Shown: positions 37,245-54,991 of the stretch, piece by piece
Numbering within the stretch: the first letter of the stretch is position 1
Layout: the number at the start of each line of letters is the position of its first letter
Assembly (NCBI RefSeq): GCF_013373365.1
Contig: NZ_CP035925.1
Location: forward strand, 2,666,001 to 2,730,000
Origin: Lentibacillus sp. CBA3610
GTDB taxonomy: Bacteria > Bacillota > Bacilli > Bacillales > Amphibacillaceae
Length of the DNA stretch: 64,000 nucleotides
Reading direction: 5' to 3'
Translations under genes and position numbers: made by a program
Notes under the pieces: generated by a model
The model's database searches: none
The model's input: only the letters and a program-made list of their open reading frames with translations
Told to the model about the DNA's origin: nothing

Positions 37245-38963
37245 TTATTCCCTTCTTTTTATAATAGACATTACTTTCCTTATCAACCTAGTATAACGCC
37301 AGGATCGACTGTTTATTATTGCCTCATATTTCGTTTTGTATAATTGAATTTCTTTTAATGTTTTATTTTTTTCACTTTTAAGGCTGGCTTTTTCCTTTTT
37401 CAATCTTTTTAATTTCTGATTTGTTCTTTCTATATCTCGCTGAAGCTCTTCATTTTTTTGTTTAAATGTTTTGGCCCTTTTTTTAAAGTGGTTCTTCTCA
37501 TTACTTTGATCCTTGAGTTCTTTCCTTAGCTCCGCCTTTGTTTCGGTTAGTATTTCAAACCCTACTTTAACTGTTTTATTCCAATCACATTCTATAACCT
37601 CTTGTACGTTTGCCTCATTAGGACCACGGTAACATAGTGATTTGAACTCTTCTATTTTTTCTTTATCAACCCCCCCAACAACAATAGCTATTTGTCCATC
37701 TCTCATTTTTTTTACATAGCCGTTTAAATTATTCTTCCTCGCCTGTTGTCTAATCCATGAAAGATACCCTGTTCCAGTAAAATCTCCAGTCACTTTATAG
37801 CTTTTTGCATAAACTTTTTCTAACGACGGAGGGGGTAACAACCTAATTTCCTTTGTAGTTACATTATTGAGAGGTGCTATTATATTATCTAAGTCAAAGT
37901 AAAGGTTCGTTCGTTTAGAGTTCATCGTTTCAGGAAAATAATAGTCAATTATTGGCTTCACAACATCCCTTGCCTTTCCTGCTACAGGAAATATATGAAG
38001 GCCCAACATAGGTTTTGTATTAATCTCAATTACTGTTCCAGAATTATTTTGTTCATCAACAATCATATCTAAACCACATATATCTAATCCTGGTATTGAT
38101 TTTACCGCTTTACCAGCTATGATTTTTAATTCCTCAGGTAAATCATCAGTAACATCAATTGGATCTCCGCCTGTTGAAACGTTACTTTTACTACGTAACA
38201 AAATTTGTTTCTTTTCTTCCGGTACACTGTTGGGAGTGTATCCTAAATGAGAAATTGAGTTTAATACTTCCTTATCAATATTGATTAACTTCTTTGATAT
38301 ATTTGGATTACCTTTTTTACTTTTATTTTTCAGTTTTATTAACTCTTCTATTGTATTTTTACCGTCCCCAATAATATTTGCTGGAATTCGATTTACAGCC
38401 CCTACTACTTTCCCTTGCACAAGTAAAATTCGGTATTCTCGTCCTTCTACATGTTTTTCAATGATGATGTCTTTATAACCAAGTTTGTTGCGTACATATA
38501 CCAATGACTCTTCTAATTCTCTTTCTGAACGGATGCTCGAGAATACTCCCTTTCCAGAATTTGTGTCAGTTGGCTTAAGAACTACCGGGTAGCCTAGTGT
38601 TTTTGCATAATCTAGAATTTTATCGTTGTCGGTGTCTGGTTCAAATCTTTTTCCTTCAGGGACAGCCACTCCTGATTTAGACATCAGTTTTTTCGTCAGA
38701 TCTTTATTTTCACAACTTTTATATGCCTCTTCCGTTAGCTTTTCACCTCTAGAGCTTTCAAATCGGTATTCACGTCCATTGAATTCCAAAGAGTACCTGA
38801 TTAAAACTTTATTTTCTGGGTTATCAATGTTATGAAAATTTACAGTTATTCCGCGCCTCCAGGCTTCTAAAGCTATTAGGTACATACTTAGTTTATTTCC
38901 ATAAGCAGCTGAGGGTATTGCATCTTCCAAGTGAGGCAACCAATCAGTTTTATATTGATTCAT
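37245..38963 (-). CDS. ATP-grasp ligase-like protein with degenerate acylphosphatase domain, array member 1
   Basis: A 572-residue cytoplasmic protein. About 15-75 is a family-specific N-terminal domain (WLPHLEDAIPS, LIALEAWRRGITVNF). About 85-335 is an ATP-grasp fold like that of GshAB/cyanophycin synthetase: NKDLTKKLMSKSGVAVPEGK, PVVLKPTDTNSGKGVF, IIEKHVEGREYRILLV and the Mg2+-binding VIEINTKPMLG. About 375-455 is an acylphosphatase-like domain in which the catalytic Arg and Asn positions are Leu and Lys. A long charged coiled coil follows, then the tail NSRSWRYTRLIRK. GGAGAGTTTTA precedes the ATG at 38963. It is last in the operon. Likely an amide- or ester-forming ligase acting with the glycan machinery; substrate unknown. 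Confidence 0.75.
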   Translation of the reverse strand: MNQYKTDWLPHLEDAIPSAAYGNKLSMYLIALEAWRRGITVNFHNIDNPENKVLIRYSLEFNGREYRFESSRGEKLTEEAYKSCENKDLTKKLMSKSGVAVPEGKRFEPDTDNDKILDYAKTLGYPVVLKPTDTNSGKGVFSSIRSERELEESLVYVRNKLGYKDIIIEKHVEGREYRILLVQGKVVGAVNRIPANIIGDGKNTIEELIKLKNKSKKGNPNISKKLINIDKEVLNSISHLGYTPNSVPEEKKQILLRSKSNVSTGGDPIDVTDDLPEELKIIAGKAVKSIPGLDICGLDMIVDEQNNSGTVIEINTKPMLGLHIFPVAGKARDVVKPIIDYYFPETMNSKRTNLYFDLDNIIAPLNNVTTKEIRLLPPPSLEKVYAKSYKVTGDFTGTGYLSWIRQQARKNNLNGYVKKMRDGQIAIVVGGVDKEKIEEFKSLCYRGPNEANVQEVIECDWNKTVKVGFEILTETKAELRKELKDQSNEKNHFKKRAKTFKQKNEELQRDIERTNQKLKRLKKEKASLKSEKNKTLKEIQLYKTKYEAIINSRSWRYTRLIRKVMSIIKRRE

Positions 38964-39085
38964 TAAAACTCTCCAATCCGTCAAATGCTGAGTAAGGAGA
39001 CTGCCACTTTACAGGAAAGATTACCAGCATGACATAAATATAATTCAATAGATAGTTACGGAAAATAAACCAAGAGATAGTGAAT

Positions 39086-40684
39086 TTAAGCTTTTCTAAG
39101 GGATCTAATAAAATTTTTACCTTTATCAATAACAAAGCGGAACGGGGCCGTGGATCTCCAAAACCTGCTCGATTTTATTTGTCCGTAACGTTTTTTATAA
39201 AAGTACAACTCTTTTCCCATTTGCTCATTATCAAGTTCTATTTGGCTAATCTCTTCGCTGCTTAGTTTTTTATTGATCTCAAAACCGATTTTTACCGGTT
39301 TATCCCAAGGTTTTTCTATAACACCTGATACCTCCGCTTTAGGGTTCCCCTCTAAACAAACATTTTTAAATTCATTAATTTCTTCTTCGTTTGTTCCAGC
39401 TACGACAACCGAAATGTTCCCATCTTCTAACTCTTCAGTAAACCCATGCATCCTTCTTAATAAAGCTTGTCTTTTTATCCAAACCTTATAACCTACATTT
39501 CGTATTTTCCCAGACACAATATAATTTTTTGCATATATTTCACCTTCAGGTAAGGGGGTTACTTCTACTGCTTCAGCCGTCCTGTTTTGTAACGGCTCCA
39601 ATATACTATTGAAATCAAAATATAGACTTGATCGCTTAATGTCTTTTGTTTCAGGAAAATAAAAATCAATTATATCTTTGGGTATATCCCGTGGTTCACC
39701 CTGGACAGGGAATAGATGTCCACCTAATCCCGGTCTGGTATTTGCTTCTATAATTACACCCGAGTTATTTTCATCATCGACTATCATATCCATGCCACTA
39801 ACTGTTAAACCTGGAATAGCTTTCGTACCATCTATTGCAACCTCCCTTAGTTCAGGGGAAAGAACATCTGTCAAATCAACAGAATCACCACCTGTTGAAA
39901 GGTTGCTGGTTAATCTCAAAGATATTTCTTCGCCTTCCCTTGGAACACTATCTAGAGTATATCCATTTGCTGTTAAGAGTTCAATTACAGGTTTATCAAT
40001 TTTTATATTTCTGCTTTTTAAATGTGGATTACTTCTCCTCATTCTATTCTTGTTTCTTATTAACTGCCTTATTGTATCTTTTCCATTACCTGCTACATGA
40101 GCCGGCACCCTATTAAGAGCTCCAACAACTTTATTATCAACTACAACTACGCGATATTCATTACCGGCTACATAAGCTTCAACAATGACTTCCATGTATT
40201 CCAATTCATAACGAACATAACTCAGTGCATCTTTGAACGACTCAATGCTATGGATATCAGAGAAAACCCCTTTTCCTCCATTTGCATTTGTCGGTTTTAA
40301 AACTAAAGGAAAACCTAAAGTATTAGCATAATTTATTATCTCTTCATCCTCAGTTTCTTCTGTAAACCGTTTCCCATCTGGTGTCGGAACATTGGCTTTT
40401 GAGAGGTATTCTTTGGTAAGATATTTATTATCACAAATTTCGTATGCTAACTCTGTTGTTTTATCTCCCTTGGAAGATTCAAACCTATGCTCTCTATCAC
40501 CATTACTTAAGGAATACCTGACCTTTAATTTATTTTCTGGATTATCAATGGTATAGAACTTTAATTTTAAACCACGTCTCCACCCCTCCAAGGCTATGGT
40601 GTACATACTCAGTTTTTTCCCAAATCCAGTGACTGGCACTGCGTTTTCCAAATGCGGCAGCCAATTAACATCATTAATTTCCAT
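39086..40684 (-). CDS. ATP-grasp ligase-like protein with degenerate acylphosphatase domain, array member 2
   Basis: A 532-residue paralogue. N-terminal WLPHLENAVPVTGFGKK and IALEGWRRGLKLKFY; ATP-grasp with NKYLTKEYLSKANVPTPDGK, PLVLKPTNANGGKGVF, VIVEAYVAGNEYRVVVVDNK and IIEANTRPGLGGHLFPVQGE. The acylphosphatase-like domain (about 385-465, IVSGKIRNVGYKVWIKR) has Lys for the catalytic Arg and Glu for Asn. A short helical segment ends in SSRFWRSTAPFR. AGGAGGAAATAGGTA precedes the ATG. 122 bases separate it from member 1, the largest gap in the array, yet no terminator is seen there. Confidence 0.75.
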   Translation of the reverse strand: MEINDVNWLPHLENAVPVTGFGKKLSMYTIALEGWRRGLKLKFYTIDNPENKLKVRYSLSNGDREHRFESSKGDKTTELAYEICDNKYLTKEYLSKANVPTPDGKRFTEETEDEEIINYANTLGFPLVLKPTNANGGKGVFSDIHSIESFKDALSYVRYELEYMEVIVEAYVAGNEYRVVVVDNKVVGALNRVPAHVAGNGKDTIRQLIRNKNRMRRSNPHLKSRNIKIDKPVIELLTANGYTLDSVPREGEEISLRLTSNLSTGGDSVDLTDVLSPELREVAIDGTKAIPGLTVSGMDMIVDDENNSGVIIEANTRPGLGGHLFPVQGEPRDIPKDIIDFYFPETKDIKRSSLYFDFNSILEPLQNRTAEAVEVTPLPEGEIYAKNYIVSGKIRNVGYKVWIKRQALLRRMHGFTEELEDGNISVVVAGTNEEEINEFKNVCLEGNPKAEVSGVIEKPWDKPVKIGFEINKKLSSEEISQIELDNEQMGKELYFYKKRYGQIKSSRFWRSTAPFRFVIDKGKNFIRSLRKA

Positions 40685-40728
40685 TACCTATTTCCTCCTA
40701 AGAAAGAGCGTAAAACATGTTTAAGATA

Positions 40729-42345
40729 TTACTCAAATATTCTTCCACATTTTTTAATTTTACCACCTAAATTACGTAGAGGCGATGTCATTTTCCACAT
40801 ACGGCTATTTTGAATCATATTTATTCTTTGATTCAAAAGATTGTCTTCCTTTTTAGTTTGCTTCATTTTCTTTTTAATATCTTCTATTTCGTTCTCCAGT
40901 TCCTTGTTGCTTTTAAAAAGATAATCGTTTTTTATTTCAAAGCCCAATTTTATAGGGCTTCCCCAATATTCTTTAGTTATATTAAATATCTGGGATTTAA
41001 AACGTCTAGAACCTATTAAGTCGGAAAATGATCTAATATCATTTTCAGTTTTTCCTGCAATGACAATTTCAATGTTCTCTTCATCAACCTGTTCGATAAA
41101 GCCATTTAAATTAAGATTTAATACCCTTTTGTTTAACCATTGATAAAACTCAATAGCATCTATACTCGTATTAATTATATATCTTTTCGCAATCAATTTA
41201 TTTTTTTCTGCTGGGAATACCTCTATTGCCTTTGTAGATCCTGCAATCAGAGACTCTTTAATTTTTTGAAAGTCAAAAAAAACATTTGATCTTTCTGTCG
41301 ATATTCCTTTTGTATTCGGGAAATAGAGGTCAATAATTGCTTTTGGAATATCTCTGGCTTCCCCTTCTACAGGAAATAAGTGAGAACCTAACCCCGGTCG
41401 TGTGTTAAGTTCAAGTATAACCGGAGTGTCATCTTCATTAGTTATTACCATATCAACTCCGCAATGGACTAGACCGGGTATAGACTTAACAGCTTTAATA
41501 GCAGTCTTTTTCTGCTCATTCGTGATTTTTTCTGTAACATCTATAGGGTCTCCACCTGTTGAAATATTACTTGTAGTCCTAAGAAAAATTCTTTCATCTT
41601 GCTTCGGTACACTATCTAAAGTATAACCAGCAGCATGAATAGTTTTTTTAACAGTTGAATCTAACTTGATTGGGCGAAAATATAAATGTGGAATACTCTT
41701 TCTAAGTTCATTTTTCATTTCTATTAATTTAGAAATTGGATTAATACCGTCCCCGATAACATTAGCCGGTATTCTTTTCACTGCTGCTAAAACGTTATCC
41801 CCCACAATAAAAACACGGATTTCTTCTCCGGGTACATATTCCTCAACAATTAAGCTCTGGAACCCGAGTGTGTCTCGTAAGTAAAGCAAAGCTTCTTTTA
41901 ATTCTTTGTTGTCTTTAATGTTTGAAACAACACCTTTTCCACCACTGCCATCTGTAGGTTTTACAACTAATGGAAAATAAAGTGTTTTAGCATGGTCCAT
42001 TATTTCAGAAATCGTTTTATTGTTTTCAAAACTTTTCCCATGTGGAGTAGGGACTGCTGTACTTTTAAGTTGTGTTTTAGTTAAAGCCTTGTCATCGCAA
42101 ATTTCAATCGCTTTTTCTGTATTCAAGTCTCCTCCCGAGCCTTCAAAATGATGAATCCGTCCAGGGCTGTTCAAGGAGTATTTTATATCAAGCTTATTGT
42201 TGTTAATATACGAATAAAAGTTTAAGTTCAGACCTCGTCGCCAGCCTTCCAAGGCTATAGTGTACATACTGATTCTGTTTCTTTTTGCTTCACTGGGAAT
42301 AGAATCAATAAGATGAGGTAACCTTTTTCCATGCTTGTTTTCCAT
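40729..42345 (-). CDS. ATP-grasp ligase-like protein with degenerate acylphosphatase domain, array member 3
   Basis: A 538-residue paralogue. ATP-grasp motifs: DKALTKTQLKSTAVPTPHGK, PLVVKPTDGSGGKGVV, LIVEEYVPGEEIRVFIVGDN, VILELNTRPGLGSHLFPVEGE. The acylphosphatase-like region (about 385-465) is the most eroded: the phosphate-binding loop is TSIDAIEFYQW, lacking the glycines, Arg and Asn. A coiled coil of Lys/Glu/Asn residues precedes QNSRMWKMTSPLRNLG. GAGGGAAGAATGATGA lies before the ATG. 44 bases separate it from member 2. Confidence 0.75.
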   Translation of the reverse strand: MENKHGKRLPHLIDSIPSEAKRNRISMYTIALEGWRRGLNLNFYSYINNNKLDIKYSLNSPGRIHHFEGSGGDLNTEKAIEICDDKALTKTQLKSTAVPTPHGKSFENNKTISEIMDHAKTLYFPLVVKPTDGSGGKGVVSNIKDNKELKEALLYLRDTLGFQSLIVEEYVPGEEIRVFIVGDNVLAAVKRIPANVIGDGINPISKLIEMKNELRKSIPHLYFRPIKLDSTVKKTIHAAGYTLDSVPKQDERIFLRTTSNISTGGDPIDVTEKITNEQKKTAIKAVKSIPGLVHCGVDMVITNEDDTPVILELNTRPGLGSHLFPVEGEARDIPKAIIDLYFPNTKGISTERSNVFFDFQKIKESLIAGSTKAIEVFPAEKNKLIAKRYIINTSIDAIEFYQWLNKRVLNLNLNGFIEQVDEENIEIVIAGKTENDIRSFSDLIGSRRFKSQIFNITKEYWGSPIKLGFEIKNDYLFKSNKELENEIEDIKKKMKQTKKEDNLLNQRINMIQNSRMWKMTSPLRNLGGKIKKCGRIFE

Positions 42346-42376
42346 TCATCATTCTTCCCTCTGTAAATATAGTGAA

Positions 42377-43966
42377 TTATTTATTTTTAATTAAACGAAT
42401 AATTTTTCTCATTGGAAGAGTATACTTCCAGCTCTTACTTTGCTTTAAACTTTTCAATTGTTTGGTTGTTTGCTCCAGTTCATAAGTTAATTTTTTATTT
42501 TTCTCTTGTTCTTTATTAAGGTTGTTTTTTAGCGTTTTAATTTTTCCAGGCTTGTTAACAATTTCAAAGCCTACTTTTACAGGTTCTGTATATTCATCTT
42601 CTTTTACTTTCTCAACTTGTATTTTTTTCGTGTTATGTTTCCGTACAACTTCTGTAAATTGATCTACTTTGTTCTGTGATCCAGCTGCAACTATTAAAAC
42701 GCTTTTATCCTTTAAGTTTTTAACGTATCCACTTATTTTTCTTCCGATTGCTTTTTTGTACACCCAATTCCTGAAACCAACACCTTGTACTTTTCCCGAA
42801 ACCTTCAACTGTTTAAAAACCAAATCGTTGTCTGGTAAAGAAGGTACCGTAACTTCTTCAACTATGCCACTTTTTAATATCTTTTCTATGCTTTCATAGT
42901 CGAAATAAAGCTTATTACGACCACTAGTTTCATCATCGGATATACTTTCAGGAAAATAGTAGTCAATAATATGTTTTGAAATATTTTGTGCTTCACCTTC
43001 CACCGGAAATAAGCTGCCCCCTATGTTAGGCCTTGAATTCAATTCCAAAACATAATTAGTTCGCTTCTTTTTGTCAATCATGATATCAACACCACAAACG
43101 ACTAATCCTGGCAAAGACTTTGCAGCTTCGACAGCTATCCTTTTACTTTCCTCGGTGAGCTCATTCGTTACCTCAACTGTTTCCGCGCCAGCTGAAGCAA
43201 TTGTACTTTCATTTAAAAAAACTCGTTCGCCTTTTTGTGGTATTGTTTCAAGTGAAAGCCCATGACTTTCGAGGTATTCTCTCAGTTCCTTGCCAAGCTT
43301 AATTTGAGACTTGCTAAGATGTGGATTTATTCGTCTTTCTTTATTTTTAATCTTAATAAGCTCTTCTATTGTATGTTTGCCATCACCAACTACATTGGCA
43401 GCTATTCGTTTGAATGCAGAACAAACTTGATTACCAACAACAAATAAACGGGTATCTTCCCCTGTTACTTGCTGTTCAACAATCATTTCTTTATAACCCT
43501 TTTTATTTCTTAAATTTTTGACACTATCAACCAATGTTTGGTCATCATATATACCAGTAACGACACCTATCCCTAAGCTGGCATTGGTCGGCTTGATTAC
43601 CAAAGGGTATTCCAAAGTTTTTGCGTAATTTATAACTTCTTCATCACTATTTTCCTCATCAAAGCTTTTTCCTTTAGGTGTTGGAACGTTAGAATTTTGA
43701 AGTGCTTTTTTTGTGTTTTTTTTGCTTCGTGTGGTTTTTCTTGTTTCTTTTGGTACTGTCTCTGCCAAGGATAGCTGAAAGGTGATGTCTCTTTCCTCGC
43801 TGCTTAAAGTATATCGAATCTTAACCTGATTTTTTACATATTTTGTGAAGAATTTTAACTTTAATCCTCTTCTCCAACCTTCTAAAGACATACTGAACAT
43901 GGTGGAATTTGCCCCATATGCATTTTCTGGCATGATTTCTTTTAGTTGAGATAATGAATTTTCCAT
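42377..43966 (-). CDS. ATP-grasp ligase-like protein with intact acylphosphatase motif, array member 4
   Basis: A 529-residue paralogue. The ATP-grasp domain has NTKKALQNSNVPTPKGKSF, PLVIKPTNASLGIGVV, MIVEQQVTGEDTRLFVVGN and VLELNSRPNIGGSLFPVEGE. The DDK/CDDK start seen in the other members is replaced by a Lys/Arg/Thr stretch. Its acylphosphatase domain (about 385-470) alone keeps the full signature: SGKVQGVGFRNWVYKKA with the catalytic Arg and SGYVKNLKD with the Asn. Coiled coil, then QSKSWKYTLPMRK. The ATG at 43966 is chosen by alignment with the other members; its ribosome binding site is weak. It could both form and hydrolyse acyl-phosphate intermediates, which is inference. Confidence 0.75.
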   Translation of the reverse strand: MENSLSQLKEIMPENAYGANSTMFSMSLEGWRRGLKLKFFTKYVKNQVKIRYTLSSEERDITFQLSLAETVPKETRKTTRSKKNTKKALQNSNVPTPKGKSFDEENSDEEVINYAKTLEYPLVIKPTNASLGIGVVTGIYDDQTLVDSVKNLRNKKGYKEMIVEQQVTGEDTRLFVVGNQVCSAFKRIAANVVGDGKHTIEELIKIKNKERRINPHLSKSQIKLGKELREYLESHGLSLETIPQKGERVFLNESTIASAGAETVEVTNELTEESKRIAVEAAKSLPGLVVCGVDIMIDKKKRTNYVLELNSRPNIGGSLFPVEGEAQNISKHIIDYYFPESISDDETSGRNKLYFDYESIEKILKSGIVEEVTVPSLPDNDLVFKQLKVSGKVQGVGFRNWVYKKAIGRKISGYVKNLKDKSVLIVAAGSQNKVDQFTEVVRKHNTKKIQVEKVKEDEYTEPVKVGFEIVNKPGKIKTLKNNLNKEQEKNKKLTYELEQTTKQLKSLKQSKSWKYTLPMRKIIRLIKNK

Positions 43967-44053
43967 TCCAATCAATCCATTCCTTCCATTAATAATTAAA
44001 ATTATTGAAATCAAATAGATCCATATCGAATCTCTTCAGGATGCTTTGGTATA

Positions 44054-45679
44054 TTATCGTGCTAGTTTTCTTATAAGACTGGTGAAATTGCGCAGGGGTC
44101 TGGTTGCTCTCCACACGCGGCTACCGAGCATTTTTTGATATTGCTTTTGACTAGCTTGTTTTTTCTTTTTTACTTTTCTCAACTCTTCTTTTACCTTAGT
44201 TAATTCGTTTATCAATTGAGTTTTATCGCCGTCAAGAAAAAATCCTAGCTGAACAGCATCATTTACAACTTCTTCCTTAATATGTGATTGAATGGAATTC
44301 GATTCAATAATATTTCGTCTAAAATTATCCAATGATTGCTTATTATGGCTTGCAATAACTATTTCGGTTGCCCCAGATTCATGAATTTTTGTGAATCCAA
44401 ATAAATTATTCTTCAGAGCTTCCTGTTTGATAAAATAATGAGACCCAGAGTTACTTTCTCCTTCGAATACAGTTATTTTTCTTACATATAATCCTGTCGG
44501 TTCCACAGAATTCACTTCAGTTACGGCCGCTATTCTATCAGCCAAAGGCGATAATACTTCACTTAAGTTGAAATACAAATTAGATGCTTTACCTTTTCCT
44601 TTAGTTTCAGGAAAATAATAATCAATAATTTTCGCCGGTATATCCCGTCCCTTACCTTTTATAGGATACAAAAGAGAACCAATTTGTGCTGTAGGATTAA
44701 CTTCTAGTACTACCCCATCTCCATATTGGGTGGGATGTTGTTCGGATAAAATTAAATCAACTGCCCCATGAACAAGACCAGGGATCGCCTGTATTGCACC
44801 AACTGCAGTATTCATAATTTCCAATGGTAAGTCATCTAAAACATCTACTGGATCACCACCAAGCGAAATGTTACTCTTTTCACTGAGAAAAACTTTTTCA
44901 CCTGTTTTTGGTACGCTATTCAAATCATAGTTCAGCTTATCAATTTGTATTTCTAATTCCTTAGTAATATTTATCGGACAACTTTTAAGGCGTGGATTTT
45001 CCATTCTTTTTTTATTTTTATTTTTAATTAAGGTTTCAATAGAGTTTGCTCCATCACCAATTACATTTGCTGGGATTCTATTGATAGCGCCTACTACTTT
45101 ATTTCCTACAACATAAATACGGTACTCGTTGCCAGGTATATGGTGTTCTACAATCACATTTTTATATTTCAGTTCTCCACGTACATAAATTAATGCATAT
45201 TCTAATTCATTTTCATCCTGAATATTAGTCAGAATTCCTCTTCCAAAACTTCCATCTAGGGATTTCACTACAACCGGAAAGCCGATAGATGAAGCGTACC
45301 TATGAATATCGCTATTGGATTGGGTTTCTGAGAAAAATGCCCCTTCAGGTATAGGAATCCCGTTTTCACTAAGAATTTGTTTGGTTTTGTTTTTATCCTT
45401 TCCGATGTAGACAGCTTCATTACTAATTTTGTCTCCACGTGTTCGAAAAAAATAATGTGTCCCACCTGCGGAAGTTAAAGAAAAGAGTTGACCTGGATTG
45501 TCCACAAACCATGTTTCCATTTCTCTAAATTTCTCCGAGTCTTTAACATGCCATCTTAGTTTCAAACCTCTCTGCCAGCCTTCAAGAGCAACAGCATACG
45601 CATCCAGTAAATTGCCATGTACGTCTGATACAATTTCACTGGAGAGGTGCGGCAGCCACTCTGTGTTGTTCTCTACCAT
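44054..45679 (-). CDS. ATP-grasp ligase-like protein with degenerate acylphosphatase domain, array member 5
   Basis: A 541-residue paralogue, the first of the five in transcription order. Motifs: DKNKTKQILSENGIPIPEG, PVVVKSLDGSFGRGIL, VIVEHHIPGNEYRIYVVGNK, VHGAVDLILSEQ, VVLEVNPTAQIGSLLYPIKG. The N-terminal domain carries a 20-residue insert compared with the others. The acylphosphatase-like domain (about 390-470) lacks the Gly-x-Val-Gln-Gly loop, Arg and Asn. Ends GSRVWRATRPLRNFTSLIRKLAR after a Lys-rich coiled coil. GGAGGAAGTCTAA precedes the ATG. It follows the TupA-like gene by 39 bases. Confidence 0.75.
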   Translation of the reverse strand: MVENNTEWLPHLSSEIVSDVHGNLLDAYAVALEGWQRGLKLRWHVKDSEKFREMETWFVDNPGQLFSLTSAGGTHYFFRTRGDKISNEAVYIGKDKNKTKQILSENGIPIPEGAFFSETQSNSDIHRYASSIGFPVVVKSLDGSFGRGILTNIQDENELEYALIYVRGELKYKNVIVEHHIPGNEYRIYVVGNKVVGAINRIPANVIGDGANSIETLIKNKNKKRMENPRLKSCPINITKELEIQIDKLNYDLNSVPKTGEKVFLSEKSNISLGGDPVDVLDDLPLEIMNTAVGAIQAIPGLVHGAVDLILSEQHPTQYGDGVVLEVNPTAQIGSLLYPIKGKGRDIPAKIIDYYFPETKGKGKASNLYFNLSEVLSPLADRIAAVTEVNSVEPTGLYVRKITVFEGESNSGSHYFIKQEALKNNLFGFTKIHESGATEIVIASHNKQSLDNFRRNIIESNSIQSHIKEEVVNDAVQLGFFLDGDKTQLINELTKVKEELRKVKKKKQASQKQYQKMLGSRVWRATRPLRNFTSLIRKLAR

Positions 45680-45718
45680 TTAGACTTCCTCCTAAATCCC
45701 AACCCGTTGTAAAACTGT

Positions 45719-47149
45719 TCATTTCCAGCTTGTTAATCTGTTGTATGCTCTAAATTGTTTTCCATAAATTAAATCCTGCGTCAGCCGGTCTTCTGCTTCC
45801 ACAAAATAGTCACCGAGCCATTTATCTGTTGGTTCATCGAAATCATCATAATTTCCCGGCTTTGGTGTAAATTCACCGAATACCAATTCATTCGCGGATC
45901 TCAGAAAATCAATCCGGATGAACGGTGCCGGTATTTTCCGGCTAATCTCAGCAGCTGAATCGATTTCTGCCTGGGTAACGCCTTTCCCGGCAAATAGGTT
46001 TTCGTCATACTTGCCTGTCCGGACGCGTTCTCCAGTTGGTGTCCACCAGCAATACTTCAGCTCTGGATAGCGGACGATTTCAAGGATAAGCCCGACTTTG
46101 CCGTAAAAACAATAAAATTTGATGTCACTGGCAGGTGTTCGGTCATTTTCCATAATAAGTTCTTCAATCGTCCATTCATCATCCGCGACCCAGCCTGAGT
46201 CAAGATCCTGTTTCATACTTGCCTTCAGGTCATCCCAGTTATCGAGTTTTTTCGACCTTTTCATATCTACTATATCATTAATATCCTGAACAAGATAGAC
46301 GCCGCGTGAGCCCGCGCCGTCAGCGGGTTTAATGACCATTCCGGATTTTTCGGGCAGGTTCGTGCTTGTGTAAGTTGCATCGGATGTCCACGGACGTCGC
46401 AGCCTCAGTTCGTCTGCAAACAGATAAGCTGTCCGTTTATCATCCAATTCCCACTCCGGCAGCGAGCCTGTCAGCTGCAATTGCCGCATGCGACTGTTCA
46501 AACTTGCCCGGAACGAAACGGTCGGCCGCAGTGAGATGCCATTCGTCAAACCGGCTCTTATGATGAATTCAGGGATGTCTTCCATTTTCAAACCGGCCAT
46601 GGCACTCGCATAAACGAGGTTACGGTAGTCCTGCTTTTCGTTCATAAATAAGCGGGCAGCATGACGTAATGTACGGTTGTAGTTGGTATCATGCTGTTTC
46701 TTCTGCTGGACGAGATCTCCCAGATATTCCAGTAACGTTCCATTGTCTTTTGCCTCATTGACAGCTTGTACCATTTTATTGGCATCTGGTTTGCGGCTGT
46801 CCAGTATAAGGCGTTTATTTTCTTCTTTCGCATCATATAAAGCCTGTTCTGTTTCTTTTAGCTTTTCTTCCAGATGCCTAATATATTCGTTTTGCTGTTT
46901 GGTGGAACCGGAAAACATCCCGGTCAGTTTTTCAAATGGTTTGTTGTACTGCCATGTTTTGCTGTTTTCGATATGTTTGAGCTGTTTTTTGTTATCATTG
47001 ATCGCTTTGTCCGTTTGTGCGATTTGCGCTTCTTTTTCCATCAGTTGTTTGATCAATTCCAGTTCCGTCTCTTTTTCGGATGGATAAGCGGTATTCGTTT
47101 TCGGTACGTTATTTAAATGGTTATGATGATTCTTGTCGATGGTAACCAT
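45719..47149 (-). CDS. TupA-like ATP-grasp protein with N-terminal coiled coil
   Basis: A 476-residue protein. Residues 1-120 are charged coiled coil interrupted by NSKTWQYNKPFEKL, a form of the Trp/Arg tail of the neighbouring ATP-grasp proteins, here near the N-terminus. The C-terminal half resembles the TupA-like ATP-grasp family: SGMVIKPADGAGSRGVYLV, EWTIEELIMEN, DIKFYCFYGKVGLILEIVRYP and FIRIDFLRSANELVFGEFTPKPG. TupA of Bacillus halodurans is needed for teichuronopeptide, a wall polymer of glucuronate and glutamate. The homology suggests attachment of an amino acid or polymer to a glycan here. Start uncertain: the AAAAGGGG ribosome binding site lies very close to the ATG at 47149. Confidence 0.75.
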   Translation of the reverse strand: MVTIDKNHHNHLNNVPKTNTAYPSEKETELELIKQLMEKEAQIAQTDKAINDNKKQLKHIENSKTWQYNKPFEKLTGMFSGSTKQQNEYIRHLEEKLKETEQALYDAKEENKRLILDSRKPDANKMVQAVNEAKDNGTLLEYLGDLVQQKKQHDTNYNRTLRHAARLFMNEKQDYRNLVYASAMAGLKMEDIPEFIIRAGLTNGISLRPTVSFRASLNSRMRQLQLTGSLPEWELDDKRTAYLFADELRLRRPWTSDATYTSTNLPEKSGMVIKPADGAGSRGVYLVQDINDIVDMKRSKKLDNWDDLKASMKQDLDSGWVADDEWTIEELIMENDRTPASDIKFYCFYGKVGLILEIVRYPELKYCWWTPTGERVRTGKYDENLFAGKGVTQAEIDSAAEISRKIPAPFIRIDFLRSANELVFGEFTPKPGNYDDFDEPTDKWLGDYFVEAEDRLTQDLIYGKQFRAYNRLTSWK

Positions 47150-47237: not shown

Positions 47238-49688
47238 TCAATCAGTATGGATAGTGTGCTCGGCTGATTGAAGATACGGGTTCGCATTAACCAGCCAGTT
47301 TGCGAGGAACTCACCGTATGCTGTTTCTTCCTCGGCATCGGGCCAGTTGGCGTTGGCCAAATGAATAAATCGTAATTTGTTCACCTTATCCGTTTCTAAT
47401 ATATCACGGATTTCCTGATTTTTCGGGTACCAATTTCCTTTTTTGCCAAAATAGGCGGTGAGTCTTCTGGAACAGGTACGAATATTATAACCAACCGCTT
47501 GTGATGGTGGCCTTTCGATAACGGTCAGCACAGCCACCGGGTTTATGTCAGGTATATAGTGCTGTTTTTCCTGCAAAATGGACGGATTTTTGATCAGCAG
47601 AATATCGCATGTGATTGATTCACCGTAGACCAGCATCTGTACATTTTTTCCGTCGATTAATTTCCGTACGTCAGCGTTTACGGTTCTTGCGGTGCTGAAA
47701 TTATATTCCGCCATCTGCACCAGCCCAGTCCGCAGCCCTATTTCGTTATGCGCACGTATTCCGCTGATTGTTTCTTGCAGTTGGTCGGTTGGCAAGCGGA
47801 AATCGGCTGCCACGACGATATCAAAATGACGATTGCCGTTATGTTTCGGTTCGCGATTCGTCCACATCGGCTCTGGTACGGGAAAAAGACGATTTGGCTG
47901 ACTTGCCGGGTAATATAATGAATCTGCCTGTTTATGATAGTATTCGAAGCTTTCAACATATTCTTTTCGTACGCCTTTGAAAAAACCGCTGTAACCAAAT
48001 GCTGAACTGCCGGTCAACGATGCCACAGACTGCCTTGGAAGTGATAATGGTCCTGTCTTAAGGTCCACAATCGTTTGTTTGCCGAACACGTTTATCAGTC
48101 TGCGTTTGAATTCGCCATCAGCCGCAAATCGCACACTGTCCCAGTAACCAAGTTTTTTCAGCACCGGCTTTCGTCTGAACATTAACGAGGACATATTGGA
48201 AAAAATATAATGTCCCGGTGTCCCGCGGCGGTAAAATGTGAGATCCTCAGTCAGCCGGGCATGTTCGGATGTATTGGCTATAATTTTTTTATTGTTCTGC
48301 AGATGCTTGGCCTGTATTTCGATTTTTTCCGCATGCGACCAATCATCGGAATCGTTGATGGTTACATAGTCACCGGTTGCTGCTTTTAGTGCAATATTCC
48401 GGGCAACGTATGGCCCGCTGTTTTCCGGTGTGGACATCAGCGTTATGCGCGAGTCACGTTTCATATGAGCACGTACAACATCTTTGGTCTGATCGCTGCT
48501 GCAGTCATCAACCACCAGCAGTTCAATGTTCTGCCACGTCTGTGAAAGAATCGAGTTGATGGCTGTTGAAATGCCATCTTCCGCATTATAAGCCGGCAAT
48601 ATGACCGATACTTTTGGGCCGGATTCGATTTTTTTATTTAGCGGTTTGGTCGTTAGGTCATCGTATGTGATGGATTCGTTCGAGTTCGGGATGCGCTCGC
48701 TCAAGTTTGGGTTGTTCCCGCTTTTGTTCGGGCTGTTCTCGCTCACGTTTACGTTGCTCCCGCTCATGTTCGTCTTGCTCTCGCTCGAGTTTGTGATGTT
48801 CTCGCACGAATTGGGCTCGCTCTCGCACGATTCGGGACCACTCTCGCTCGTTTTGGCGTCGCTCTCGCACGATTCAGCATCGCTCTCGCACGTTTCGCCG
48901 TTGCTCCCGTACATTTCAACACCGCTCGTGCCCGGTTCACCACCGCTTTCACAAGCAGAGGCGAAATAAACAAGCTGTAAGTTGTAAGCTTTCATCGCTT
49001 TATTGATCCATTCCGTGCGTGCCTCGACCGTTTTTTCCAAATTGGCGTATCCTAAATATAAATCCGGATGCTTCTGCTTACGAAGCGCTTGGTCCAGCAC
49101 TTTTTTGCCTTCATCCGGTTCATCCAGCATGTCATAACACTCTGCCTGGATAATCGCCGCTCTTCGCAACCGTTCGCTATCTTTTTCGCCATCGATTACA
49201 ACAGGCAAGTACGTGAGCGCCTGCAATGCACCTTCCTCCGTATATTTACCGGCATGCCATAAGGCCAGCTCCCATGCGACGGCGCGTTTTTGATAACGAC
49301 TTTCAGGATGGTCATACATACTTTCCAGATCGGCTAATGCTTTTTCTGTCAATCCTAATTCATATAAATAATAGCGGTATGGTTTTAATTGATTGTCAGC
49401 TTTCTTTTGTTTGTATGCCTTGCTGTAAAGTTGTTTGATATTGCGTCTGCCAAGCATGTAAGCAGCCGTCGATCGCACAAAACGGATAACCTTCTGTTTG
49501 ATGCGGCTTACTGCTTGTATCTTGCGCTGGATGGCATTGAATTGCACTTGCCGCCGGATTAATTGCTGTTTCACGGCTGCTTCCTGTTCCTGTTTCTCGG
49601 CAAGCTCCTTATCCAGCCGGGCTAATTGATCACGAAGCCCCGTGTTGCGCTTTTGCAGTTCATCGCGTTTTTCGTTATGAGCGGGCAT
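47238..49688 (-). CDS. GT2 glycosyltransferase with helical N-terminus and an in-frame 21-bp repeat insert
   Basis: An 816-residue protein. Coiled coil at about 1-75, a TPR-like helical region at about 85-240, a Ser/Glu/Asn heptad region at 247-338 and a GT-A fold family 2 domain from about 350. The GT motifs are SVILPAYNAEDGISTAI, LLVVDDCSSDQTKDV and the DxD-like INDSDDWSHAEK. The C-terminal region of about 200 residues is shared with the next gene. The heptads (CESDAES, CESDAKT, SESGPES, CESEPNS and so on) are the translation of a 13-unit 21-bp array. The paralogue at 49675 lacks them entirely at the same point. Probably a cytoplasmic glycan-chain transferase; its start overlaps the end of that paralogue's gene by 14 bases. 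Confidence 0.82.
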   Translation of the reverse strand: MPAHNEKRDELQKRNTGLRDQLARLDKELAEKQEQEAAVKQQLIRRQVQFNAIQRKIQAVSRIKQKVIRFVRSTAAYMLGRRNIKQLYSKAYKQKKADNQLKPYRYYLYELGLTEKALADLESMYDHPESRYQKRAVAWELALWHAGKYTEEGALQALTYLPVVIDGEKDSERLRRAAIIQAECYDMLDEPDEGKKVLDQALRKQKHPDLYLGYANLEKTVEARTEWINKAMKAYNLQLVYFASACESGGEPGTSGVEMYGSNGETCESDAESCESDAKTSESGPESCESEPNSCENITNSSESKTNMSGSNVNVSENSPNKSGNNPNLSERIPNSNESITYDDLTTKPLNKKIESGPKVSVILPAYNAEDGISTAINSILSQTWQNIELLVVDDCSSDQTKDVVRAHMKRDSRITLMSTPENSGPYVARNIALKAATGDYVTINDSDDWSHAEKIEIQAKHLQNNKKIIANTSEHARLTEDLTFYRRGTPGHYIFSNMSSLMFRRKPVLKKLGYWDSVRFAADGEFKRRLINVFGKQTIVDLKTGPLSLPRQSVASLTGSSAFGYSGFFKGVRKEYVESFEYYHKQADSLYYPASQPNRLFPVPEPMWTNREPKHNGNRHFDIVVAADFRLPTDQLQETISGIRAHNEIGLRTGLVQMAEYNFSTARTVNADVRKLIDGKNVQMLVYGESITCDILLIKNPSILQEKQHYIPDINPVAVLTVIERPPSQAVGYNIRTCSRRLTAYFGKKGNWYPKNQEIRDILETDKVNKLRFIHLANANWPDAEEETAYGEFLANWLVNANPYLQSAEHTIHTD
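48675..48947. repeat. 21-bp tandem repeat array inside a coding sequence, 13 units
   Basis: Units begin at 48675 and recur every 21 bases (for example CTCGCACGATTCGGGACCA... at 48822). The core CTCGCACG or CTCGCTCG plus a T-rich follow-up is the same family as at 759-1031. Read on the minus strand, each unit is a seven-residue repeat; both the frame and the rest of the protein are preserved. Confidence 0.9.
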
Positions 49689-51606
49689 CGTCTGTTACCT
49701 TCTTCCCGTCCTTCATCATGGCACTGAATTCTGATGCATTCATGTGCCATGTTCCGGTTTGGCCAAAATAAGATTGCAGATGGTTGCGGCAACGGTCGAT
49801 GTCGAGGTCACCCGGAATTCGATCAGCCATCACATGCATGTCTTCCGCCGCTATATTCGGAACATATTGCTGCCAGTCCTCCAGCACGGTCGGATCCATA
49901 ATAATCAACTTATTCGTACTGATTTTCTCGCCGTAAACGACCATTTGCAGCTGGTCCCCATCGATCAAATCACGTATGAGCGGACTCACGTCACGATTAT
50001 CGGTTAAATCATAATGATACATTTGAATTAATCCAATGCGCTTATTTTGAGCAATCACGTCTCGAATCGCCTGACGTGTTCGCTCATCTTCATCGCCCAG
50101 TCGAAAATCAGCCGCTGCGACCACATCAAAATGGCGTCTGCCGTCTGATGATTTTTCCTCCCGATTTGGCCACATGGGTTCAGGAACCGGAAATGGGCGC
50201 TTGCTTTGCGGGTATGGATAATATAAAGAATCCGCTCGGCGGTGATGGTGTTCCAGGCTTTCAACATACTCAAGGCGCACTCCTTTGAAAAAACCGTTAT
50301 AGCCAAATGCCGAACTGCCTGTCAGGGATGCAGCCGATTGTCTCGGAAGCGATAATGGTCCCGATTTCAAATCCACATAACGTGTTTGTCCGAATGCTTT
50401 TATGAGCCGGCGCTTGAATTCCCCATCTGCAGCAAAACGTACACTGTCCCAATAGCCGATTTTTTTCAGTACTGGCTTGCGTCTGAACATGATCGAGGAC
50501 ATATTTGCGAAAATATACCTGCCGGGTGTTCCGCGGCGATATAATTTCAACTCGTCTGTCAGCCGGGCATGTTCCGACGTATTGGCAATGACTTTTCTAT
50601 TGTTTTTCAGATGTGTTGCCTGGATTTCAATTTTTTCTGCATGTGACCAGTCATCCGAATCATTGATGGTAACGTAATCACCGGACGCCGCTTTTAGTGC
50701 TATATTCCTGGCGATGTATGGTCCGCTGTTTTCCGGTGTCGACAATAACGTTATCCGTGCATCCTGCTTCATGTATTCACGGACGACATCTTTCGTATTA
50801 TCGGGGCTGCAATCGTCAACGACCAGCAGCTCGATGTTTTGCCAGGTCTGATTCAGAATCGACTCAATTGCTGTTGAGATGCCATCTTCTGCATTAAAGG
50901 CCGGCAATATGACCGAAACTTTCGGGCCGTTTTCGATAACTTTATCGACCGGTTTAGTTTGCAGATCATCATATGAAACCGGACTATCATCCGTTTGAAA
51001 GAAAACAGGCTGCAGATGATAGGCTCCCATGGCTTGATTGATCCAGTTGGTCCGTTCCGCAATCGATTCCTCAAGGTTGGCATAGGCCAAATATAAATCA
51101 GGGTGCGCCTCTCTCGTGAGGGCTTTTTCAATGACTCGTTTCCCTTCATCCGTTTGATCAAGGATATCGTGGCATTCTGCTTTGATAATCGCTGCACGCC
51201 GCAATTGAACCGGATCTGATTCACCATCTATGACCCCCGGTAAGTATTCGAGTGCCTGACGTGCTCCGTCTTTTGTATATTTATTGGCATGCCACTGCAC
51301 GAGTTCCCAGGCAGCCATGCGTTTCAAATAAGCGTCGTTCGACGTCAAATGGAGTTCTTCCAGTTCCGCCAATGTTTTGTCCGTGAACCCCAAAGTGTAA
51401 AGGTGGTGTCTCAATTGCTTCAATAAATGCTTTTGTTCATGCATTTTTCCGTGACGCGTCAACTTGCGCAGCATATTTTTCTGACTGTCCGTCAGCAAAT
51501 TGGAAATGGCTTTCTTCTGTTTTTCATTTAATACCGTATATAACGCCCAATCCATTAGTTTGCTGACTGCTTTTTTAATGAATTTGATCAAATCATTCAC
51601 CACCAT
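49675..51606 (-). CDS. GT2 glycosyltransferase with helical N-terminus
   Basis: A 643-residue paralogue of the preceding protein. The N-terminal helices include KFIKKAVSKLMDWALYTVL, then TPR-like helices (about 60-205), a short linker SPVSYDDLQTKPVDKVIENG and a GT-A family 2 domain (SVILPAFNAEDGISTAI, LLVVDDCSPDNTKDV, INDSDDWSHAEK). The C-terminal domain has FRRKPVLKKIGYWDSVRFAADGEFKRRL split across it. It should transfer sugars for the surface polymer in the cytoplasm. The ATG at 51606 lies seven bases past the ABC gene stop, so translational coupling is likely; no strong ribosome binding site is seen. Confidence 0.82.
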   Translation of the reverse strand: MVVNDLIKFIKKAVSKLMDWALYTVLNEKQKKAISNLLTDSQKNMLRKLTRHGKMHEQKHLLKQLRHHLYTLGFTDKTLAELEELHLTSNDAYLKRMAAWELVQWHANKYTKDGARQALEYLPGVIDGESDPVQLRRAAIIKAECHDILDQTDEGKRVIEKALTREAHPDLYLAYANLEESIAERTNWINQAMGAYHLQPVFFQTDDSPVSYDDLQTKPVDKVIENGPKVSVILPAFNAEDGISTAIESILNQTWQNIELLVVDDCSPDNTKDVVREYMKQDARITLLSTPENSGPYIARNIALKAASGDYVTINDSDDWSHAEKIEIQATHLKNNRKVIANTSEHARLTDELKLYRRGTPGRYIFANMSSIMFRRKPVLKKIGYWDSVRFAADGEFKRRLIKAFGQTRYVDLKSGPLSLPRQSAASLTGSSAFGYNGFFKGVRLEYVESLEHHHRRADSLYYPYPQSKRPFPVPEPMWPNREEKSSDGRRHFDVVAAADFRLGDEDERTRQAIRDVIAQNKRIGLIQMYHYDLTDNRDVSPLIRDLIDGDQLQMVVYGEKISTNKLIIMDPTVLEDWQQYVPNIAAEDMHVMADRIPGDLDIDRCRNHLQSYFGQTGTWHMNASEFSAMMKDGKKVTDDARS

Positions 51607-51613
51607 TCATGCA

Positions 51614-53170
51614 CTATCTGTTCACTTTTTGCCGGTTTGCCTTTTTGCCGGCTTTATTTTGGCTGCTTAATCCCAATGACTCACGATACTTGGTGACAGC
51701 TTCTTCTGCAGTCCCATCAAAGCGGACCTGGCCTTGCTCCATCCAAAGCGCACGTGTGCATACTTTTTCAACAAAATTCATATTGTGTGACACGATAATC
51801 ACTGCTTTGGCACCTTCAATCATATCCTGAATCCGTTCGCTTGCCTTTTCCTGAAATTCCAAATCACCGGTTGAGAGGGCTTCATCAATGATAAAGATAT
51901 CCGGCTTGAGTGTTGCCGCGATGCTGAAGCCCAGGCGCGATTTCATACCGCTTGAATATTCTTTTACCGGCTTATCAATGGCCCCTTTTATTCCGGAAAA
52001 TTCAACAATCTCATCATATTTTTCATCAACACGTTTTTTCGGGATGCCAAGCAGCATCGCATTCAAATAAACATTGTCGCTGCCGGTAAGCTGCGGATTA
52101 AAGCCGGTACCATAACCTAAGAGAGCCGATGTTTCGCCATTCAGTTCGATCTGGCCCTCATCAGGCTGGTAAATTTTCGTCAGCACTTTACATAGCGTAC
52201 TTTTGCCGGCGCCGTTATGGCCGATAATCCCGACAACTTCCCCAGCCTTGATTTCAAAATCCATATTGCGGAGTGCCCAGAATTCCCCTTTGTTTTTCAG
52301 CTGGAAGGAAACACCGACATTCTCCGCTTTCACCACGGTGCTGTCTTGTACGTTTGTTTCCGTTTTATCAAGCTGCAGCAGACGTTTTTTTCGTGGCGGG
52401 CGTGGTGGCATTGTCGCTTTATAGTTGGCAACGACTTCTTTCGGATCACCATCTTCACGGATGACACCGCCATCCACCCAGATCAGCCGGTCACAATTCC
52501 GCTGGGCATAGGGAAGACTGTGTGTAACAATGATCACCATTTTGGCACGTTTGACAAGCTCTTTCATTTTCAGAGCTGCCTTTTGACTAAACTGGGCATC
52601 ACCGGTATTCAGCGCTTCATCAAGGATTAAAATTTCCGGTTCAAGGTGTGCCGCCACACTGAAGCCAAGTCGTGCTTTCATCCCGCTCGAGTAATACTTC
52701 ATCGGCTGATCCATGAACTCACCAAGATCGGAAAATGCGTGTATCTCGTCAATGTATTGATTGATTAATGCCTTATCGATCCCGAGCATCATGCCGTTCA
52801 GATAAACGTTCTCCCGGCCGGTCAGCTCTTTATTGAAACCCATACCGAATGAGAACAGGGCGGTCACTTTGCCGTCGACCTTCATGTCCCCCTGGTCGTG
52901 ACGCAGGATACCGGTAATGATTTTACTGAGCGTTGTCTTCCCTGCCCCATTGGAACCGATAATCCCGAGAATTTCACCTTGCAAGCCTTCGAAGTTTATA
53001 TCCTTTAATGGCCATACTTCTTTTGGCCTTTCCACTCGGCCGCGGTTTTTGAAAAAGCGGAATACCTTTGATTTGTAGTCATCCTGCTGTTTCCCGGATT
53101 GAAAATACACACCGATATTCTTCGCTTTGATTACTTTTTCTTCAGTTGTCGAATTATTTTGGTCTGCCAT
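51614..53170 (-). CDS. Polysaccharide/teichoic acid export ATPase with two fused nucleotide-binding domains
   Basis: A 518-residue Wzt/TagH-type ABC ATPase that contains two complete ATPase domains. Domain 1 (about 1-265): GIIGSNGAGKTTLSKI, YYSSGMKARLGFS, ILILDEALNTGD. Domain 2 (about 285-500): GIIGHNGAGKSTLCKV, EYSSGMKSRLGFS, IFIIDEALSTGD. Both look catalytically competent. TagH of B. subtilis has one ATPase domain plus a C-terminal extension, so a tandem fusion is unusual. It should power flipping of a lipid-linked glycan through the permease encoded 33 bases downstream of its start. GAAGGTTTTAATT precedes the ATG. The last 15 residues are basic. Confidence 0.9.
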   Translation of the reverse strand: MADQNNSTTEEKVIKAKNIGVYFQSGKQQDDYKSKVFRFFKNRGRVERPKEVWPLKDINFEGLQGEILGIIGSNGAGKTTLSKIITGILRHDQGDMKVDGKVTALFSFGMGFNKELTGRENVYLNGMMLGIDKALINQYIDEIHAFSDLGEFMDQPMKYYSSGMKARLGFSVAAHLEPEILILDEALNTGDAQFSQKAALKMKELVKRAKMVIIVTHSLPYAQRNCDRLIWVDGGVIREDGDPKEVVANYKATMPPRPPRKKRLLQLDKTETNVQDSTVVKAENVGVSFQLKNKGEFWALRNMDFEIKAGEVVGIIGHNGAGKSTLCKVLTKIYQPDEGQIELNGETSALLGYGTGFNPQLTGSDNVYLNAMLLGIPKKRVDEKYDEIVEFSGIKGAIDKPVKEYSSGMKSRLGFSIAATLKPDIFIIDEALSTGDLEFQEKASERIQDMIEGAKAVIIVSHNMNFVEKVCTRALWMEQGQVRFDGTAEEAVTKYRESLGLSSQNKAGKKANRQKVNR

Positions 53171-53986: not shown

Positions 53987-54024
53987 AATTATTAATGACA
54001 CCGCCTGATTCTTACAATTAAGAG

Positions 54025-54173
54025 GTTGTTCAAAAAGTCCGGTAAATGACACTTCAATTTCTTCGTTGGCTTGCTTTTCCGCTGCTCGTGTATCTAAATG
54101 CATACACTCCGCTGCTCAAAGCTTCGCCGCCTCGAACTTTTCGGTCCTTTTTATCCTCCTTTTTGAACACGCA
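54025..54173. repeat. MITE-like element with inverted ends
   Basis: About 150 bp bounded by GTTGTTCAAAAAG on the left and CTTTTTGAACAC on the right, inverted to each other. No coding sequence of its own. It fills the 189-base gap between the permease and GT2 genes, and its right end abuts the GT2 stop. Intergenic sequences starting GGTTGTTCAAAAAGTCC are, to my recollection, common in Bacillaceae; this is not checked. Confidence 0.5.
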
Positions 54174-54979: not shown

Positions 54980-54991
54980 ATCATCACCTGT

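Follow-up and report, generated by a model that had tools for sequence, protein, structure and literature searches.

Five consecutive paralogous ORFs of the halophile Lentibacillus sp. CBA3610, located on the minus strand between positions 37245 and 45679 of the 64,000-nucleotide stretch analysed here (the window), probably encode active ligases that join amino acids, as judged from their sequences and predicted folds. Together with a TupA-like protein encoded beside them, we consider it rather likely that these enzymes build, as specialised ligases, the peptide part, most likely glutamyl, of a wall glycopolymer of the teichuronopeptide type. Each paralogue (listed lengths 532-579 amino acids) is labelled APG for its ATP-grasp and acylphosphatase-like domains, and the copies are numbered from the TupA side. 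The ORFs and domain profiles confirm the five tandem genes of one architecture described in the original prediction, arranged as follows.

44054..45679, minus strand: APG copy 1 (nearest TupA), 541 amino acids; ATP-grasp followed by a degenerate acylphosphatase-like domain, a coiled coil and a tail with SRVW
42377..43966, minus strand: APG copy 2, 529 amino acids from ATG; ATP-grasp and acylphosphatase with Arg and Asn intact; SKSW tail
42938..43945, minus strand: model residues 8-343 of copy 2; ATP-grasp domain of the GshAB/CphA type
42554..42826, minus strand: model residues 381-471 of copy 2; acylphosphatase domain with both catalytic residues retained
40729..42345, minus strand: APG copy 3, 538 amino acids; acylphosphatase degenerate (Tyr and Gln at the two sites)
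39086..40684, minus strand: APG copy 4, 532 amino acids; acylphosphatase degenerate (Lys, Glu)
37245..38963, minus strand: APG copy 5, 572 amino acids from ATG; long coiled coil; acylphosphatase degenerate (Leu, Lys)

The likely starts of copies 2 and 5 are the ATG codons at 43966 and 38963 and not the listed TTG codons at 44014 and 38984.

All five copies pass the Pfam cut-off for the RimK ATP-grasp domain, and their best NCBIfam scores are to cyanophycin synthetase and then GshAB, both far under the model cut-offs. The predicted models of copies 2 and 1 (pLDDT 93.5 and 90.2) have their best ATP-grasp structure matches in CphA and GshAB with Z scores of 29-32 over about 313-316 residues at 26-28% identity (for copy 2 a VIA Z of 29.1 against 3ln6 and of 29.0 against 7wae, and for copy 1 31.9 against a CphA-type ATP-grasp), and a profile search of the PDB gives E values of 2e-59 and 2e-50 for the same families. 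The GshAB/cyanophycin-synthetase-like ATP-grasp originally proposed is thus borne out by Pfam, NCBIfam and the predicted folds. The separate N-terminal W-L-P-H-L domain has to be given up, as the models and structure comparison place this segment at the start of the ATP-grasp fold and copy 2 does not carry the motif. Loss of the ATP-grasp metal or lysine ligands, named beforehand as evidence against the proposal, is rare in the alignment of 211 full-length copies (24 of the 235 array ORFs are left out as partial), with the ligands about 99% kept (Lys 209, Glu 208, Arg 209, Asp 209, Glu 209 and Asn 208). A further lysine column (T-K-K) is conserved in 183 of the 211.

The acylphosphatase-like domain is present in all five copies, as predicted, with an intact catalytic pair only in copy 2. 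Copies 2, 4 and 5 pass the Pfam cut-off, copy 3 falls just below it (21.9 versus 22.5 bits), and the score of copy 1 (14.3 bits) is not significant. The fold is assigned from structure for copy 2, from secondary-structure order for copy 1 and from the Pfam score alone for the other three. The copy 2 domain superposes on the Escherichia coli and Bacillus subtilis acylphosphatases with a VIA Z of 17.0 and an rmsd of 1.2-1.5 Å, and in the copy 1 model the order of strands and helices in this region matches acylphosphatase. The 50 structure matches listed for the copy 1 model include no acylphosphatase, all places being taken by the ATP-grasp domain, and this says nothing against the fold. The catalytic Arg and Asn, whose positions we take to be those of muscle acylphosphatase, do not survive in copies 1, 3, 4 and 5 of the window and are missing in 179 of the 221 domains across the loci (present in 42); the acylphosphatase part of the array proteins is mostly degenerate. 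It is not a rule that every array retains an intact acylphosphatase, as 32 of 54 arrays have one and 22 none; at two loci of one species (L019 and L021) the intact domain comes only from an AcP-YheC/D fusion. The decay of this site, along with the short or partial copies present in some arrays, would fit a scheme in which ligase activity is confined to one or two copies and the rest are structural or regulatory pseudoenzymes. We regard this as improbable, since the ATP-grasp ligands, unlike the acylphosphatase site, are kept in all clades.

The five copies end in a coiled coil with an S-x-W tail, in agreement with the coiled coil and Trp/Arg tail first noted. Under a strict text rule, which gives lower counts than the alignment columns, this ending is found in 62 of 239 APG, 26 of 62 TupA and 2 of 43 GT816-type ORFs, in 6 of 267 other ORFs (five ATP-grasps and one spurious), and in none of 41 Wzt, 41 GT643-type and 31 Wzm ORFs. 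The coiled coil and tail are common to APG, TupA and some other ATP-grasps of these loci, and probably serve to dock the ligases into one assembly.

The genes ahead of the array are those anticipated, with TupA, two GT2 glycosyltransferases and the Wzt and Wzm components of an ABC exporter.

45719..47149, minus strand: TupA-like ATP-grasp (PF14305; Pfam), N-terminal coiled coil with SKTW motif
47238..49688, minus strand: GT2 glycosyltransferase, 816 amino acids (Pfam/NCBIfam)
49675..51606, minus strand: GT2 glycosyltransferase, 643 amino acids (Pfam/NCBIfam)
51614..53170, minus strand: Wzt/TagH-type export ATPase, two ABC stretches in a single chain (Pfam/NCBIfam)
53204..54103, minus strand: Wzm-type ABC-2 permease (Pfam/NCBIfam)
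54176..57261, minus strand: three upstream glycosyltransferases (GT2 at 54176-54979, GT4-type at 55182-56123 and 56116-57261)

Genes similar to the three upstream glycosyltransferases lie near some homologous arrays. The TupA-like gene scores 227.4 bits against a PF14305 cut-off of 25, and residues K276, E331/E332, D416 and E428 are kept in at least 95% of 49 aligned operon TupAs. The order is Wzm, Wzt, two GT2, TupA and then the five APG copies, with intergenic gaps of -14 to 122 bases from Wzm through the last copy. The claim of one operon without an internal terminator stands insofar as no minus-strand terminator-like site is seen between 37245 and 50979; over the whole window the terminator scan is at chance level (18 sites found, 16.3 expected), as is the promoter scan.

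Related loci show the same arrangement (the comparison uses the best 80 of 110 relatives, which come from 63 loci, and copy counts per array include partial copies and two fusions). In 54 of 64 loci the gene directly ahead of the array is TupA, which argues against homologues residing mainly outside glycan loci; two of these loci (L048 and L052) share one contig, making 53 distinct arrays, and three pairs (L042/L044, L038/L053 and L031/L057) are contigs or places from one species. The order Wzm-Wzt-GT(-GT)-TupA-APG is complete in 28 loci, many being cut upstream. Six of the ten loci with no TupA before the array begin 1.7 kb or less from the locus end, and three (L050, L057 and L070) have room for one. 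The predicted co-occurrence with TupA extends to whole genomes: 33 of 34 array-bearing genomes have TupA at the family level (159 genomes) and 18 of 19 at the order level (348 genomes; Fisher p about 1e-29 for each), with at most four candidates scored per genome in some searches. Plasmid-borne arrays find no support, as none of the 126 plasmid records matched by copy 1 in a tblastn search covers 80% of the query. A genome that we take to be Oceanobacillus iheyensis has its only TupA match inside this operon type; OB2920 of that species is named as the tupA homologue in PMC8153356. The TupA associations make it very improbable that the array produces soluble oligopeptides or an osmolyte with its glycan neighbours incidental, although N-acetylglutaminylglutamine synthetase (TIGR03103) is among the better NCBIfam matches and many host genera are halophiles.

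The copies are old and diverged. In the window, copies 1, 3, 4 and 5 share 31-39% identity with copy 2, and across loci the copies separate into clades by array place. Of 50 first-place copies, 47 group together in a clade that has 49 labelled tips (support 0.97) and includes copy 1; among 50 second-place copies, 38 make up a clade with no others in it. The tree requires 30 changes of place compared with a mean of 108 and a minimum of 96 in 300 shuffles, and the clades hold their place across genera. Because the first- and second-place copies have clades of their own, their roles appear old and the copies are not recent duplicates; a reading as recent duplication for dosage is ruled out by the identities and by clades common to several genera. 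The conserved places agree with different steps or substrates for each copy, as far as sequence can tell, and are also expected from plain vertical descent of whole arrays. The clades also differ after the metal-binding Asn (NPTA versus N-S/T-R/K-P). This divergence and the adjoining glycosyltransferase and export genes would suit paralogues that each put a single, different amino acid on uronic-acid carboxyls or other glycan groups, at a position of its own and with no polymerisation. Such decoration is a possible but less favoured explanation, as known proteins with the CphA-like fold extend peptides and PGA_cap genes inside many arrays, although not that of the window, hint at a glutamyl polymer.

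The CapA/PgsA-type (PGA_cap) domain is known from poly-gamma-glutamate capsules. Of the 64 loci, 28 (mostly detected by phmmer) have it inside the array or close by, 19 of them inside, and in one locus (L025) it is fused to a TupA-like ATP-grasp (Pfam). The other 36 loci, including that of the window and some that are cut short, have none near the array; none is found in the window, and at least one lies elsewhere in the same genome. PgsB is absent from the window's genome (best score 33.3 bits versus a cut-off of 222.7). Its absence does not serve as general support, since PgsB is found in 14 of 34 array-bearing family genomes (10 of the 14 from one genus; 10 of 125 among the others) and in 15 of the 46 array-bearing genomes searched, which represent 48 of the 63 loci. 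Where found, PgsB lies outside the array, and glutamate polymers in those genomes need not be array products. The fold does not by itself point to glutamate, given that ATP-grasps of the CphA type accept several amino acids.

In the favoured assembly of a glutamyl wall glycopolymer, the five APG proteins would act as carboxylate-amine ligases with an ATP-grasp like that of CphA and GshAB, each phosphorylating a carboxylate with ATP and then joining an amine. Array and TupA would work in the cytoplasm ahead of Wzm-Wzt export, with the copies as old specialised enzymes for fixed, differing steps or acceptors. The acylphosphatase domain may originally have been an acyl-phosphate hydrolase and now be a non-catalytic binding or scaffold domain in most copies, and a minority may still hydrolyse acyl phosphates for editing or overflow. 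The original idea that amino acids are added to a surface glycan before export is accordingly supported in part. A bolder version, in which the array is the missing PgsB-independent L-glutamate polymerase of teichuronopeptide, with paralogues extending or capping at fixed steps, intact acylphosphatases proofreading and degenerate ones serving as acyl-phosphate-binding gates, is rather doubtful. An acyl-phosphate hydrolase domain and an acyl-phosphate-forming ligase in one chain, a fusion that loci of this type show with two distinct ATP-grasp families, may represent a proofreading design in non-ribosomal peptide ligation.

The description of the system as undescribed holds in part. In the portions of the tupA and teichuronopeptide literature available no account of such a ligase array is found; teichuronopeptide and TupA themselves are known, and a review (PMC3815933) points out that poly-gamma-L-glutamate (teichuronopeptide) is produced by Bacillus halodurans although it has no pgs/cap genes, raises the possibility of an ATP-grasp L-PGA synthetase yet to be identified and leaves the route open. 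The array is a candidate for this synthetase and supplies candidate genes for teichuronopeptide synthesis in culturable bacteria, the polymer being linked to life at high pH (PMC8153356). In the family that includes Halalkalibacter, APG genes are confined to 5 of 41 genomes, one with a single copy, so B. halodurans C-125 may make teichuronopeptide without the array.

The teichuronopeptide system of alkaliphilic Bacillus shares with the array loci a TupA-family ATP-grasp encoded with glycosyltransferases and an exporter; its polymer consists of poly-L-glutamate and polyglucuronate. The PgsBCA/CapBCA systems share the PGA_cap domain with the 28 loci noted above and differ in having PgsB as ligase in place of an ATP-grasp. 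Stand-alone acylphosphatases and the acylphosphatase domain of HypF have the same fold as the array domain, which is fused to a ligase and mostly lacks the Arg-Asn pair (179 of 221). CphA and GshAB are closest to the array copies in the fold and sequence of the ATP-grasp domain. The copies lack the Mur-ligase domain of CphA (176-254 bits versus cut-offs of 850 and 877, matching only positions of about 184-477 of the NCBIfam cyanophycin synthetase profile) and the GshA domain of GshAB (168-207 bits versus 425, C-terminal part of the profile only), and add an acylphosphatase domain, a coiled coil and a tail in tandem copies within glycan loci.

The locus carries five open reading frames in a row on the minus strand and is part of a 4,035,571-base contig. 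Transcriptionally upstream of them are TupA (a TupA-like ATP-grasp gene at 45719), a pair of GT2 glycosyltransferases, genes for a Wzt-type ATPase and a Wzm-type permease, and additional glycosyltransferases. Intergenic gaps from Wzm through the last copy range from -14 to 122 bases, and scanning the window gave no minus-strand terminator-like site between 37245 and 50979. The array, for which the family label APG (ATP-grasp, acylphosphatase) is coined here, and other genes of the window are as follows:

44054 (-), APG copy nearest TupA
42377 (-), second APG copy
40729 (-), third APG copy
39086 (-), fourth APG copy
37245 (-), fifth APG copy
51614-53170 (-), Wzt-type protein with two ABC ATPase stretches in a single chain
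47238-49688 (-), 816-amino acid glycosyltransferase with a low-complexity Ser/Glu/Asn-rich linker ahead of its GT2 domain; the linker is absent from the 643-amino acid neighbour
36203-37241 (+), YheC/D-type ATP-grasp gene convergent to the array, split in two frames (ORFs 36203-36778 and 36750-37241)
34547-35863 (-), transposase-like gene (DDE_Tnp_1_assoc) immediately downstream of the array
31996-34007 (-), peptidoglycan-binding and N-acetylmuramoyl-L-alanine amidase genes, downstream of the array
24097-25089 (+), ORF weakly similar (~135 bits) to sugar-transfer-type ATP-grasps adjoining some other arrays

Given its two-frame split the YheC/D-type gene looks broken; single-frame relatives of it adjoin other arrays.

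AlphaFold models of copies 42377 (pLDDT 93.5) and 44054 (pLDDT 90.2) each have a single GshAB/CphA-type ATP-grasp fold extending from residues ~8-20 to 343-363, with structure matches to 3ln6 (Z 29.1) and 7wae (Z 29.0) for 42377 and to 7wae (Z 31.9) for 44054. The original prediction of five tandem paralogues following TupA and glycan genes is borne out, and the separate N-terminal domain it proposed is absorbed into this fold. The acylphosphatase match in the 42377 model covers residues 381-471 (Z 17.0, rmsd 1.2-1.5), and C-terminal to this domain is a coiled coil followed by a short tail.

The active-site residues were compared in 211 full-length APG copies, 24 of 235 having been removed as partial. 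Each of the ATP-grasp residues Lys, Glu, Arg, Asp, Glu and Asn is present in 208-209 copies, and a further column (T-K-K) has Lys in 183. We take the acylphosphatase catalytic pair to be the equivalent of R23/N41 of the muscle enzyme; Arg and Asn occur together in 39 of the 211 copies and His and Asn in 52, with Arg and Asn in 42/221 domains when partial copies and two fusions to YheC/D-type ATP-grasps are included. Among the window copies the pair is intact in 42377 only. The difference between ligand residues and catalytic pair points to a strongly constrained ligase and a decaying hydrolase site in the same proteins, and the mean share of the top residue per column is 0.59 for the ATP-grasp compared with 0.45 for the acylphosphatase.

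Scanning 84,980 species genomes and keeping the best 80 of 110 matches gave 63 related loci, which by record title are nearly all from bacilli (for example Lentibacillus, Virgibacillus, Oceanobacillus, Evansella, Salipaludibacillus, Shouchella and Salinicoccus). Lentibacillus, Virgibacillus, Oceanobacillus and other host genera are halophiles or alkaliphiles. One APG gene lies on a short contig under a Thermoplasmata archaeon MAG, probably through mis-binning. Among these loci together with the window, TupA is immediately before the array in 54/64, the order glycosyltransferase-TupA-APG is found in 48, Wzt-GT(-GT)-TupA-APG in 36 and the full Wzm-Wzt-GT(-GT)-TupA-APG in 28, with many loci stopping short of the upstream genes. 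Ten loci lack TupA ahead of the array; six of these start no more than 1.7 kb from the end of the locus, and three (L050, L057 and L070) had space. Arrays have up to nine copies, most commonly three.

In a FastTree tree of 528 columns, 47/50 first-place copies, including 44054 of the window, fall inside a single clade (49 labelled tips), and 38/50 second-place copies make up a pure clade. The window's second copy is outside the latter and groups with the second copy of Lentibacillus halodurans. Array place requires 30 changes on the tree compared with a mean of 108 over 300 shuffles. On this sequence evidence the divergence of roles is older than these genera, which favours different reactions without indicating which; inheritance of whole arrays alone would equally yield the place-specific clades.

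A PGA_cap domain (CapA/PgsA), detected mostly by phmmer and by Pfam on L025, L060 and L080, is in or near the array in 28/64 loci and inside it in 19, with 21/34 PGA_cap ORFs no more than 51 bases from an APG ORF (stop to stop); none was found in the window's array. It is fused to a TupA-like ATP-grasp in L025:11713-13875 (Pfam) and, by phmmer, in L026:13264-15504, L050:15489-19922 and L069:12063-14258, and a PGA_cap-like part is joined to an ST-type ATP-grasp by phmmer alone in L034:13453-15615, L040:12560-14791 and L055:16620-18845. Two Thalassobacillus loci, L019 (by Pfam) and L021 (by phmmer), carry a fusion of a YheC/D ATP-grasp with an acylphosphatase whose pair is intact, so that acyl-phosphate hydrolase and ATP-grasp are paired in two ATP-grasp families at one kind of locus. 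The tail Trp of the S-x-W motif is present in 166/178 APG alignment rows having that column, a strict text rule giving lower counts. The tail also occurs on YheC/D-type and ST-type ATP-grasps of these loci, and TupA has an S-x-W motif near its N terminus (Ser in 44/49, Trp or Tyr in 46/49).

Across 159 genomes of the window's family APG occurs in 34, TupA in 36 and both in 33, and across 348 genomes of the order in 19, 18 and 18, respectively (Fisher p ~1e-29 in each set, with G000, G079 and G082 positives in both). The exceptions are G175 and G243 (APG without TupA) and G063, G087 and G143 (TupA without APG). PgsB, the ligase of poly-gamma-glutamate synthase, is encoded elsewhere in 14/34 family genomes with an array, 10 of them from one genus, compared with 10/125 others, and in 15/46 named array-bearing genomes; in two Salipaludibacillus it is ~21 kb from TupA.

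One genome of the family, which we take to be Oceanobacillus iheyensis HTE831, has a single TupA match, at 3.017 Mb, surrounded by Wzm, Wzt, two glycosyltransferases, four APG genes (one on the opposite strand), PGA_cap and two YheC/D ATP-grasp genes. Gene 2920 of a presumed ~3,496 in this species is expected near 3.03 Mb. According to PMC8153356, the tupA homologue of O. iheyensis is OB2920 and teichuronopeptide consists of poly-gamma-L-glutamate (L-PGA) and polyglucuronate. PMC3815933 reports that B. halodurans lacks both the pgs and the cap operon and takes this to imply an unidentified system, such as an L-PGA synthetase containing an ATP-grasp domain. For such a synthetase the APG array offers a concrete candidate. 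Its candidacy is weakened by the presence of APG genes in only 5/41 genomes of the Halalkalibacter family, one with a single copy, and by PgsB elsewhere in many array-bearing genomes.

The APG genes form a genuine and conserved array of ligases at a type of locus that is already known, and we infer its chemistry. Titles and abstract openings listed in searches of open-licence literature gave no description of a fusion or array of this kind; the 2009 survey of ATP-grasp amidoligases by Iyer and co-workers, which reportedly treats teichuronopeptide and TupA, may already include the family. The array is of high interest in that it opens the L-PGA/teichuronopeptide question to testing. Among known enzymes APG resembles CphA and GshAB in ATP-grasp fold and in sequence, the five-copy profile matching cyanophycin synthase (E 2e-59) and GshAB (E 2e-50) in the PDB, and differs in that the five copies miss by far the NCBIfam full-length cut-offs for both cyanophycin synthetase and GshAB.
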